Source: Actinoplanes regularis | GTDB taxonomy: Bacteria > Actinomycetota > Actinomycetes > Mycobacteriales > Micromonosporaceae | NCBI RefSeq assembly: GCF_900188005.1 | Contig: NZ_FZNR01000007.1 | Location: forward strand, 310,001 to 374,000 | Length of the DNA stretch: 64,000 nt | Direction of reading: 5' to 3' | Shown here: one piece after another, positions 18,561-22,568 of the stretch | Layout of the letters: each line of letters opens with the position of its first letter | How positions within the stretch are numbered: position 1 is the stretch's first letter | Notes under the pieces: model-generated | Databases searched by the model: none | What the model saw: the letters and a program-made list of their open reading frames with translations, nothing else | What the model was told of the DNA's origin: nothing | Program-made: the position numbers and the translations under genes

Positions 18561-18962
18561 GTGAAGCCAACGGTCTCCTGTGTATTCGTCTGCCACGACG
18601 GCGCCGGCCGGATCCTGCTCGCCAAGCGTTCCGAGCAGGCCCGCGACGAGCCCGGGACCTGGGACTGCGGCGCCGGCGCGCTGGAGTTCGGCGAGACGTT
18701 CGAGGCGGCGGTCACCCGCGAGGTGATCGAGGAGTACACGGCCGTGCCGCAGGCGATCGAGGAGCTCGGCGTCCGCAACGTACTACGGGAGGACCCGCCG
18801 TCGCACTGGGTCGCGGTGATCTTCGCGGTGCGGGTCGACCCGGCCGAGGTCCGGATCGGCGAGCCCCACAAGTTCGACGCGCTGACCTGGTGCACCCCGG
18901 ACGATCTGCCCTCCCCGCGGCACTCCCAGCTCGACGCCACCCTCGCCCTACTGCACTGGTGA
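18561..18962 (+). CDS. NUDIX hydrolase
   Basis: 133 residues with a complete Nudix box: GALEFGETFEAAVTREVIEE (Gx5Ex7REUxEE), whose glutamates bind the divalent metal. The family hydrolyses nucleoside diphosphates linked to other moieties, often oxidised nucleotides or NDP-sugars; the substrate is not predictable. The start is GTG at 18561, 12 bases after the preceding gene. Its tail overlaps the convergent radical-SAM gene by 15 bases. Confidence 0.88.
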   Translation: MKPTVSCVFVCHDGAGRILLAKRSEQARDEPGTWDCGAGALEFGETFEAAVTREVIEEYTAVPQAIEELGVRNVLREDPPSHWVAVIFAVRVDPAEVRIGEPHKFDALTWCTPDDLPSPRHSQLDATLALLHW

Positions 18963-19559
18963 CCGTCTCGCGCGCTTCGCCGGCAGGCCGGCCAGCAGTG
19001 CGTCGAGGGTCTCCGCGTCGGCCCAGCCGTTGACGGCGATGTCGCCGGCAGCTGACACGGTCACCTCCAGGCGGTCCGGGGTGGGTGCCATCGGCAGGCG
19101 GTCGGTGAGCCGCAGGAACCGCTGGTTCGTGGAGCCCACCCAGGGCCGGGCGTGGTCCAGCAGGTCCTGCCGGAACGGGCCGGCGACCAGGAGATCTGTG
19201 GCGGTGAGCAGGGCGGTCACGTGCTCGTCGGCGCGGGCTCGCAGGTCGTCGTACTCATAACCGGTGAAGGTCATCACCGAGCGGCCCGCGGCCCGGACCC
19301 CGGCGGCCACCTCGGCCAGGCCCTCGGCCTGGTCGAACGGCTCCCCGCCGAGCAGGGTGACCCCCTCGGTGCCGGCGGCGAGGATCCGGGCGATCAGGTC
19401 GGCGGGCCGGGTCGGTACGCCGCCACGGGTGGTGAACAGGTGCGGATTGAAGCAGCCGGGGCAGCGGATCGAGCAGCCCTGGACCCAGATCGCGGTCCGC
19501 AGGCCCGGTCCCTCGGCGGTGGTCCGCTCGAGGAACCGGGCCAGGAGCACGTCAGACAT
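18948..19559 (-). CDS. 4Fe-4S single-cluster radical SAM activase-like protein
   Basis: 203 residues from the ATG at 19559. The cluster motif is CSIRCPGC (Cys29, Cys33, Cys36; CX3CX2C), followed by the SAM-binding GGEPF. Length and the short domain match NrdG/PflA-type glycyl-radical activases. No glycyl-radical enzyme is encoded nearby. The gene is the last of five overlapping minus-strand genes and overlaps the previous gene by eight bases. I infer that it works with the Ycf46-like ATPase set. A longer in-frame start lies inside the upstream gene and is unlikely. Confidence 0.82.
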   Translation of the reverse strand: MSDVLLARFLERTTAEGPGLRTAIWVQGCSIRCPGCFNPHLFTTRGGVPTRPADLIARILAAGTEGVTLLGGEPFDQAEGLAEVAAGVRAAGRSVMTFTGYEYDDLRARADEHVTALLTATDLLVAGPFRQDLLDHARPWVGSTNQRFLRLTDRLPMAPTPDRLEVTVSAAGDIAVNGWADAETLDALLAGLPAKRARRSPVQ

Positions 19560-20530: not shown

Positions 20531-20973
20531 GCCCGCTCCACCTCGAACACCAGGCGCACGCTGGCGTCGTCCTGCACCGACTCGGACTCCAGCCGCAGCC
20601 CGGCCGTCGGCGCCCGATCCCGGATCCGTTCCAGCACGGCCTGCTGGACCCGCCGCCCGTACGCCGCGTCCACCGCCGTGACCAGCTCGATCGCCCGCTC
20701 CGCCGGCATGCCGGAGGCGTGCGCCGACCAGATGCCCTCGGCGTCGCGGCTGAACGCCAGCAGCTGCTCACCCCAGGCCGCGGTCAGCGCGCTCCCACTG
20801 CTCGACGTGACCGTCGCGCCGGTGTCCCGCAACGCGTCCGCCAGCAGCGTCACGTCCCGCATCCGCGTGCCGACCCGGACCACCGTCATGCCGTCCTGGC
20901 GCCGCTCGGCCCGGGCCTGCACGGCCGCCACGCCGGCCAGCGCCAGCGGCACCAGAAGCAGTGAAACGCTCAC
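20527..20973 (-). CDS. DUF1257 (Ycf35)-like protein with N-terminal membrane helix
   Basis: 148 residues. An N-terminal hydrophobic segment (SLLLVPLALAGVAAVQA) is followed by a domain beginning TVVRVGTRMRDVTLLADALRDTG, with the order and spacing of DUF1257/Ycf35 (small alpha/beta, then a helix with a Tyr near AVDAAYG and a final beta strand). Classic DUF1257 proteins are soluble, so the anchor is unusual. The ATG overlaps the stop of the ATPase gene (ATGA) and its own stop overlaps the DUF2997-like start. Confidence 0.65.
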   Translation of the reverse strand: MSVSLLLVPLALAGVAAVQARAERRQDGMTVVRVGTRMRDVTLLADALRDTGATVTSSSGSALTAAWGEQLLAFSRDAEGIWSAHASGMPAERAIELVTAVDAAYGRRVQQAVLERIRDRAPTAGLRLESESVQDDASVRLVFEVERA

Positions 20974-22568
20974 CTCAGACTCCCCGTCTCGTTCCGGAAC
21001 TCCCAGTCATCGGTCCCCGTCGCCGAGACCGCCCGATTGCGGGCCCAGCCGCGCAGCCCGTCGATCCGCTCGGCCTGGGTGACGCTGAGCGGCACGATCG
21101 TCATCACCGCCCGCACCAGATCGTCGCGGCGCAGCCCCCGCCGCTCGGAGAACGCGTCGAACAGTCCGGCAACGACCGCCTGCTCGATCTCGGCGCCCGC
21201 GTAACCCTCGGTCAGGCCGGCCAGCTCGTCCAGCAGGGCCGGGTCGACGGCCAGCTCACCGGCGGCCCGGGGGCGGCGCAGCGCGCGTTCCAGGTGCACC
21301 CGCCAGATTGCGACCCGCTCGGCGCGGCTCGGCAGGTCGACGAAGAACACCTCGTCGAACCGTCCTTTGCGGAGCAGCTCGGACGGCAGCCCCTCGAAGT
21401 CGTTGGCGGTCGCGACCACGAACACCGGCTGCTGCCGCTCCTGCATCCAGGTCAGGAACGTACCGAAGACGCGGGCGCCGGTGCCGGAGTCGCCGTTCGT
21501 CCCGGCGGCGAACCCCTTCTCGATCTCGTCGATCCAAAGCACACACGGCGCCACCGCCTCCGCGACCCGCAGCGCCGACCGCATGTTCTGCTCGCTGGAG
21601 CCGACCAGGCCGGCGAAGACCCGGCCCACGTCCAGGCGCAGCAGCGGCAGGTCCCAGGCGGTCGCCATGGCCTTTGCGGTCAGCGACTTCCCGCAGCCGG
21701 GCACGCCGGTGATCAGCACCCCGCGCGGTGCCGGCAGACCCCACTCGGCCGCCTCCGGCAGCCACGAGCCGTTCCGTTTGACCAGCCAGGACTTCAGGTT
21801 CCGCAGGCCGCCGAGGTCGGAGAGGGTCACGCCGGCGTCGATGAATTCGAGAACCCCCGATTTACGGACGATCTGGCGTTTCTCGTCGTGCACGATGCGC
21901 ACGTCGGCCAAGTCGAGGACGGGGTCGTCCACCATCGCCCGGGCGTACGCGTTCTCCGCCTCCTGCATGGTCAGCCCGGCCGCCGCCGTCACGAACCGCT
22001 CGTGTCCGGCCTCGTCGAGCGCGACCCGCAGCCGCCCGGTCGCCGCGTTCGCCTGGATCATCGCGCCCAGCAGTCCGCGCAGCTCCGCCGGCCCGGGCAG
22101 CGGGAAGTCCACCAGGGTGACGTCCTTGCTCAGCTCGGCCGGGATCTGCGGCACCGGGGTGAGCAGCACCAGCGTGCGCGGGTGCGGGCCGGAGCGGAAC
22201 GCCTGCGCCACGTCCCGCAGCAGGCGGACGATCTCCATGTTCTGCGGGTACTGCCCGTCGACGTGCAGCGGGTGCAGGTCCCGGAAGACGAAGACGGCCG
22301 GCTCGTCGATCCGCGGGAGTGCCTGCAGCGCGTCGGTGGCCCGCTGCCCGCCGGCGCGCGGCTTGCCGTCCGGCTGAATCAGTCCAGCGGTCACCGACCA
22401 GGTCCACATCGCTCGCGGCCGGCGCACCAGTGCCTCGTCCCCGGCGACCGTGGCGATCTGGTGCAGGGCGCGCTGCTCCTCGAACGTCTCGACGCAGAGC
22501 ACCGGGAACCGGGCCTTGAGCAGTTGCGCCAAGGTCTCCGGAAACGACACCGATACTCCCGCGTTCAT
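20970..22568 (-). CDS. Ycf46-like AAA ATPase
   Basis: 532 residues from the ATG at 22568; an upstream in-frame start would add 24 poorly conserved residues. The N-terminal half (LAQLLKARFPVLCVETFEE and on to about 250) resembles the degenerate ATPase-like domain of Ycf46 from plastids and cyanobacteria. The C-terminal AAA domain has Walker A GVPGCGKS (288-295, Lys294), Walker B WIDE (Asp347, Glu348), sensor Asn in VVATAND, arginine-finger-region LLRKGRFDE and a lid. AGGA lies eight bases before the start. It heads five overlapping genes and is divergent from the Ere-like gene. Ycf46 function is poorly known. Confidence 0.85.
   Translation of the reverse strand: MNAGVSVSFPETLAQLLKARFPVLCVETFEEQRALHQIATVAGDEALVRRPRAMWTWSVTAGLIQPDGKPRAGGQRATDALQALPRIDEPAVFVFRDLHPLHVDGQYPQNMEIVRLLRDVAQAFRSGPHPRTLVLLTPVPQIPAELSKDVTLVDFPLPGPAELRGLLGAMIQANAATGRLRVALDEAGHERFVTAAAGLTMQEAENAYARAMVDDPVLDLADVRIVHDEKRQIVRKSGVLEFIDAGVTLSDLGGLRNLKSWLVKRNGSWLPEAAEWGLPAPRGVLITGVPGCGKSLTAKAMATAWDLPLLRLDVGRVFAGLVGSSEQNMRSALRVAEAVAPCVLWIDEIEKGFAAGTNGDSGTGARVFGTFLTWMQERQQPVFVVATANDFEGLPSELLRKGRFDEVFFVDLPSRAERVAIWRVHLERALRRPRAAGELAVDPALLDELAGLTEGYAGAEIEQAVVAGLFDAFSERRGLRRDDLVRAVMTIVPLSVTQAERIDGLRGWARNRAVSATGTDDWEFRNETGSLR

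Follow-up and report, generated by a model that had tools for sequence, protein, structure and literature searches.

A conserved, mobile five-gene cassette in Actinoplanes is an HhH-bearing variant of the Ycf46-DUF1257-DUF2997 module

We analyzed a 64,000-nucleotide stretch (the window) of the 10.0-Mb genome of Actinoplanes regularis, taken from contig NZ_FZNR01000007.1, in which an earlier model-made reading of the letters (the original prediction) had placed an overlapping operon of five genes at 18948..22568. Our results confirmed the open reading frames (ORFs), their families and their order, and show that the genes are a real, conserved, mobile unit, i.e., a new variant of the known, uncharacterized Ycf46-DUF1257-DUF2997 module that also carries genes for a helix-hairpin-helix (HhH) membrane protein and an NrdG-like radical S-adenosylmethionine (SAM) protein. 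The five minus-strand ORFs run from 22568 to 18948 with successive overlaps of 4, 4, 20 and 8 bases, as read from the sequence, and form a cassette of 3.6 kb. The last three junctions were as predicted, while the first, which had been given as ATGA, reads GTGA on the coding strand. The features of the cassette are:

22568-20970, minus strand: Ycf46-type AAA ATPase, 532 residues, ATG start (position uncertain by ~20 bases); Pfam AAA, 3e-29
20970..20973, minus strand: GTGA overlap of the AAA and DUF1257-like genes
20973-20527, minus strand: divergent DUF1257 protein with an N-terminal hydrophobic segment (hydropathy), 148 residues; hhalign, 97% to the DUF1257 profile
20527..20530, minus strand: GTGA overlap of the DUF1257-like and DUF2997 genes
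20530-20309, minus strand: DUF2997 protein, 73 residues; Pfam, 2e-13; invariant G16, G27 and C30
20309..20328, minus strand: 20-base overlap of the DUF2997 and HhH genes
20328-19552, minus strand: three-segment membrane protein (hydropathy) with a Pro-rich linker, HHH_3 domain (Pfam, 5e-9) and C-terminal GRIVDV, 258 residues
19552..19559, minus strand: 8-base overlap of the HhH and radical-SAM genes
19559-18948, minus strand: NrdG-like radical-SAM protein (CSIRCPGC, GGEP), 203 residues; Fer4_12, 6e-30; Radical_SAM, 4e-7

Hereafter, the HhH-bearing five-gene form is called type A, and the form with DUF2997, radical-SAM and AAA genes without the HhH gene is called type B; these labels rest on the genes visible in the fetched stretch, and short contigs can conceal a gene. 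In an alignment of nine ATPase rows, Walker A (GxPGxGKS) and the DE of Walker B were invariant, and the type A ATPases were 43-45% identical over their whole length to the one type B row, which establishes full-length similarity to Ycf46. The closest sequence relatives of the ATPase domain in the PDB were NVL and Cdc48/p97, with ~190-230 residues matched. The N-terminal half of the cassette protein bears no clear relation to AAA, and a second AAA fold there was rejected at an hhalign probability of 24%. Hydropathy gave no hydrophobic membrane segment in the ATPase.

Profile searches with the two small proteins, which had been proposed as a check, bore out both assignments, the 73-residue protein by Pfam and the 148-residue protein by profile-profile comparison. 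The latter gave no match to Pfam DUF1257 (PF06868) at E 1; hhalign aligned it over 99 columns (E 1e-10) to a profile of 30 DUF1257 sequences, 30/30 of which match PF06868, and hidden Markov model iteration starting from type A arrived at ordinary DUF1257 proteins. Its AlphaFold2 model had a predicted local-distance difference test (pLDDT) score of 82.5, and hydropathy places an added hydrophobic segment at residues 1-19. In three gut-type units (L110, L115 and L117), two DUF1257-like stretches lie within one protein of ~420 residues. DUF2997 (PF11211) was recognized at 50.4 bits, above the cut-off of 24.1. G16, G27 and C30 are its sole invariant positions, and G-x-x-C occurs in 63/63 sequences; in the AlphaFold2 model, Cys30 opens the first helix (29-41), in a block with pLDDT 82-83 (whole model, 71.5).

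The HhH protein has predicted hydrophobic segments at residues 34-52, 62-80 and 91-109, so the statement that two members carry membrane segments agrees with hydropathy for this protein and the DUF1257-like protein. Its HHH_3 domain scored 36.7 bits (cut-off, 27), in keeping with part of the claim that it bears a ComEA-like DNA-binding tail. The rest of that claim fared less well. The NCBIfam ComEA model gave 21.9 bits against a cut-off of 152.35. Hairpins of the ComEA type are expected as GxG, whereas the second hairpin here is LxPH (P in 20/20 sequences, H in 19/20), so DNA binding by this protein is unproven. Membrane segment(s) and HHH_3 are common to both proteins; the three segments, Pro-rich linker, LxPH hairpin and conserved tail set the cassette protein apart. 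One Paenibacillus relative also bears a GYF_2 domain, and L114 and L117 each contain a pair of HhH genes.

Membership of the fifth protein in the radical-SAM superfamily follows from the Radical_SAM profile (30.9 bits; cut-off, 29.5) and from CX3CX2C, present as CSIRCPGC and kept in 51/52 rows (row 52 is gapped there); with GGEP included, the full motif set is retained in 51-52 of 52 rows. Its best NCBIfam model was NrdG, at 97.6 bits and below the cut-off of 126.1, and its sequence relatives in the PDB are pyruvate formate-lyase (PFL) activases. With NrdG and PFL activases it has CX3CX2C, GGEP, GSxNQ-like motifs and Fer4_12 in common, but it extends ~45 residues beyond the 154-position NrdG model and is tied to an AAA cassette in a genome that gave 0 matches to NrdD in a profile search (the control matched 6/14). 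The prediction that it lacks any glycyl-radical partner therefore stands for the locus, where none was found, and for NrdD, but not for the genome as a whole, whose single glycyl-radical enzyme is encoded on a different contig, next to an activase-like frame. The cassette radical-SAM proteins form a clade of their own; six further NrdG-like proteins from other Actinoplanes genomes (L141-L146), which have no AAA neighbor, fall outside it.

To quantify how often the genes occur together, we counted neighbors around anchors of three kinds. With DUF2997 as the anchor, PF11211 was found in 16/101 genomes of the family, own included, at 18 places (own, 12 type A and 5 type B). At the places other than our own, AAA and radical-SAM genes adjoined in 17/17, and all five genes in the order AAA-DUF1257-DUF2997-HhH-radical SAM were present at 12/17. 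The five type B places have the order DUF2997-radical SAM-AAA and no HhH gene; DUF1257 was adjacent at two, distant at two and not seen at one. Across the phylum, PF11211 was found in 3/296 genomes: our own, G034 and a third whose score fell short of the cut-off and whose 3-kb locus held no companion genes. G034 contributed an AT-rich 5.9-kb contig (L021), perhaps a mobile element, with AAA, DUF1257 and DUF2997 genes beside RadC, ArdC-N and PemK genes. By tblastn, the L021 ATPase is similar, always at <60% identity, to sequences in 124 phage records, among them those of Streptococcus satellite phage Javan368 and of Rhodobacter and Mycobacterium phages. With the radical-SAM gene as the anchor, 16/40 Actinoplanes genomes gave matches, 11 of them strong (own and ten others), and 10/10 of the others had the five-gene order, intact even at L136, where the ATPase is split over two frames. 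The six weaker matches had no AAA neighbor within their 7-kb stretches.

With the ATPase as the anchor, we took the best 80 of 542 confirmed matches in named genomes. DUF1257 was present at 56 of these 80 loci, DUF2997 at 38, radical SAM at 29 and HhH at 6; DUF2997 was also present at 23/29 radical-SAM loci, and 6/6 HhH loci had all five families. The six come from a Gordonia metagenome-assembled genome (MAG), Paenibacillus aquistagni, a Clostridia record, a Gastranaerophilales MAG and two unassigned bacterial records, and gene order is permuted in type A loci beyond Actinomycetota. Thus, HhH and radical-SAM genes accompany Ycf46 in related and distant genomes. Since they do, and since the small proteins match their profiles, neither of the two outcomes named in advance as fatal to the original prediction was observed. 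In all, we collected 33 type A loci (Actinomycetota, Bacillota and Gastranaerophilales), four of them on plasmids, with the five families in 33/33; because this set was gathered via these genes, the anchored counts, and not 33/33, are the independent frequencies. When flanking frames (>=70 residues) at 23 type A loci were compared all against all by BLAST (E 1e-12), no sixth conserved gene emerged; clusters outside the unit reached at most three loci, always L028, L035 and L038.

Type B modules occur in Planctomycetota, Chloroflexota, methanogens, Sporomusa and on a P. polymyxa plasmid. Four of the five families (DUF1257, DUF2997, radical SAM and AAA) are common to them and the cassette, but they lack the HhH protein, their ATPases fall outside the type A branch, and they often have frames related to WD40, Hsp70 or GrpE. 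In the AAA-anchored set, WD40-related frames were present at 21/80 loci, Hsp70-like at 17/80 and GrpE-like at 7/80 (BLAST clusters, one member of each named by Pfam). Such genes lie beside type B genes at L041-L058 (e.g., L041:5733-14268; Planctomycetota, Chloroflexota and others), possibly as a larger chaperone cluster. On Treponema succinifaciens plasmid pTRESU01 (L123:6348-8503), a contractile-injection cluster (VgrG, baseplate V) encloses a radical-SAM gene and a Ycf46-type ATPase gene, which suggests that the pair is also used in that setting.

The five genes have been inherited together. Their pairwise distances over the 33 type A loci correlate with r 0.88-0.94, and with r 0.83-0.91 once the five loci outside Actinomycetota are dropped. 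The 33 ATPases form one side of a single branch (Shimodaira-Hasegawa approximate likelihood-ratio test 100, quick method), and the 33 radical-SAM proteins likewise group together (99/96; 98% of 200 bootstrap trees), which makes a single origin of the HhH-bearing form probable. Outside type A, the radical-SAM label is scattered over the ATPase tree, with at least six changes forced by the starred branches. The unit also moves. Plasmid copies were found in Arthrobacter and Rhodococcus (typed conjugative) and in two Paenarthrobacter (typed non-mobilizable), a count of four records with a fifth high-identity record left out, and the 12 flanks compared among genus copies were mostly different, with only a few pairs having common neighbors; within the 1-6 kb seen, the window copy had no flanking neighbors in common with other genus copies. 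In the window, the cassette lies between a convergent NUDIX gene (7e-18) and, divergent upstream, an erythromycin-esterase-family gene (1e-115). G417 has the cassette at the same site, together with genes for a BTAD regulator and an ATP-binding cassette (ABC) transporter; G428 and G404 have the NUDIX, BTAD regulator/ABC transporter and esterase genes but no cassette, and in G424 and G410 the esterase gene is present with no cassette beside it. Since related genomes lack the cassette at this site, its genes are acquired or lost as one block. The NUDIX-esterase interval (window 18541-24325 versus L148-L152) undergoes gene turnover in Actinoplanes, being occupied by the cassette, by the BTAD regulator and ABC transporter, or by other genes.

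HhH proteins and most type A ATPases have a common C-terminal tail. R-x-h-[DE]-h, mostly as GR-h-h-D-h, ends 34/35 HhH proteins, and the 35th (GRLLDW) is off the pattern by its last letter. The same tail ends 20/34 type A ATPase frames, whereas it is missing from the type A radical-SAM (0/23), DUF1257 (0/22) and DUF2997 (0/23) proteins and fits only 9/5067 other frames of >=100 residues at these loci. A similar end was found on 30/86 ATPase frames of other loci, e.g., YQR[LM]EF in cyanobacteria. Proteasomal ATPases carry HbYX tails, and this prompted us to propose that the tail probably serves for docking on one shared receptor within a complex. HhH proteins retain it at loci where the ATPase lacks it.

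Judging from these sequences, we lean modestly toward a general machine, i.e., a membrane-docked AAA remodeling machine with a dedicated radical-SAM enzyme. In such a machine, the Ycf46 ATPase would form a ring, as its AAA homology suggests, and reshape a client protein; DUF1257 (membrane-anchored in this variant) and DUF2997 would be its fixed small partners, and the HhH protein would be a membrane scaffold. The tails of the HhH protein and most type A ATPases would dock on a common receptor, and the radical-SAM protein would supply one-electron chemistry to the complex. The Hsp70-, WD40- and GrpE-related frames at type B loci support a protein-remodeling setting. Fixed product ratios, assembly into a complex and a link between the ATPase and radical chemistry, all part of the original prediction, likewise remain conditional. 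The radical-SAM protein might modify DUF2997, a different partner protein or a client from outside the unit. Within the unit, the likeliest target would be DUF2997, in which two glycines and one cysteine alone are invariant; even given the remodeling machine, this substrate assignment is doubtful. Several observations weigh against the remodeling machine. A radical-SAM gene is visible at only 29/80 AAA-anchored loci, so the ATPase core manages without it elsewhere, and the DUF2997 cysteine is invariant even at loci with no visible radical-SAM gene. The membrane segments are predictions from hydropathy alone. The tail pattern was defined after the tails had been inspected, and the ATPases of the window, ten Actinoplanes relatives and two further type A loci lack it. 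In addition, when the type A DUF1257 profile was run across the phylum, with 10 candidates scored per genome, it found our own genome alone (1/396).

Previous work on relatives of the module may point to another function. Passages of the cited papers place a ferredoxin gene next to DUF2997 and ycf35 in cyanobacteria (duf2997-ycf35-fed7; PMC4284462), put ycf46 (slr0374) in a stress operon, with inactivation lowering EcaB activity (PMC7496141, citing Jiang 2015), and describe ycf35, ssl1263 and fed7 as SigD-dependent (PMC8875361). These reports, together with a core that lacks radical SAM at 51/80 AAA-anchored loci, would fit a stress or redox module in which a stress-responsive AAA remodeler is paired with an iron-sulfur (Fe-S) protein that serves as electron donor or iron/redox sensor and does not modify DUF2997, a role held by ferredoxin in Synechocystis and by the radical-SAM protein in the cassette. 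We regard this as possible but clearly the less probable account, since CX3CX2C and GGEP, needless for a mere electron carrier, are kept in nearly every row, and the ferredoxin pattern CxxCxxCxxxC[PG] occurred in one frame in 80 AAA-anchored loci, ~3.5 kb from the ATPase. On that count, a ferredoxin standing in for radical SAM at these loci was rejected. Rather unlikely, in our view, is a bolder scheme in which DUF2997 is cofactor-like: the NrdG-type enzyme would make a radical-derived or cross-linked residue at G-x-x-C, and the Ycf46 ring would load, expose or recycle it at the membrane.

Patchy presence (16/101 family and 11/40 genus genomes), the plasmid copies and a partial match of the window ATPase to IetA (67 bits; PADLOC, five proteins scanned) could instead indicate a conflict or plasmid-maintenance cassette that protects its carrier, like the IetAS/SgiAT-type AAA pairs. 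We consider this unlikely. Those pairs have a serine protease partner, whereas none of the five cassette proteins is a nuclease, protease or toxin by Pfam; the alternative genes at the window's site encode a BTAD regulator and an ABC transporter; and PADLOC matches among 127 flanking frames (E 1e-10) are scattered over nine families of at most four members each, including mad3 (4), mad8 (3), AriA (2) and AbiH (1). A defense island was rejected, the five proteins themselves having given only partial AAA matches in PADLOC. Around 18 type A loci, where 127/139 flanking frames were scanned, no Pfam family had more than four members; of the 12 left out, ten belonged to the closely related species L035 and L038, and frames longer than 600 residues were cut to 600 or, in AT-richer loci, skipped. 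A machine that handles DNA at the membrane, in which a ComEA-like HhH domain would bind the DNA for the ATPase to move or remodel, would account for the HHH_3 domain, the weak ComEA match and the membrane segments, but it is very improbable given the replaced second-hairpin glycines, the missed ComEA cut-off and the lack of a recurrent transport or nuclease gene in the flanks. The least credible alternative is that the fifth gene is a mere hitch-hiker, encoding a usual activase whose partner, a glycyl-radical enzyme or anaerobic ribonucleotide reductase, has its gene at another place. The NrdG model, the PFL activase relatives and the glycyl-radical enzyme of the genome speak for it; against it, the NrdG cut-off was missed, NrdD is absent, the glycyl-radical enzyme already has an activase-like frame adjoining, and the radical-SAM protein accompanies the ATPase in every type A locus.

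Ycf46, DUF1257 (Ycf35) and DUF2997 range from archaeal MAGs to cyanobacteria, and ycf46 and ycf35 also occur in red algal plastids, where, according to a passage of PMC5940233, their presence follows habitat. A passage of PMC10954446 describes the antitoxin of Salmonella genomic island 1 (SGI1) as related to the SpoVK/Ycf46/Vps4 superfamily. No settled function for the three DUF and Ycf families was found in the open-access literature, and those of its titles and abstract starts that were inspected gave no description of the five-gene unit (subscription journals lie mostly outside this coverage); the main text of PMC7159879 contains neither 'ycf46' nor 'DUF1257'. As far as the quoted passages go, the cyanobacterial ycf46/ycf35/DUF2997/fed7 set has the ATPase, DUF1257 and DUF2997 families in common with the cassette and an Fe-S gene beside DUF2997/ycf35, and its ATPases bear a tail of the same kind as type A; it differs in that ferredoxin replaces radical SAM, the HhH membrane protein is lacking and DUF1257 is without the added membrane segment. 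If the cofactor-like scheme for DUF2997 were true, the unit would represent a protein-radical system of a novel type, assisted by an AAA ATPase, with cyanobacterial and plastid ycf46/ycf35 as its ferredoxin-using branch. A compact cassette with two extra genes, an invariant cysteine and a docking-like tail makes a vague association of DUF families experimentally approachable.

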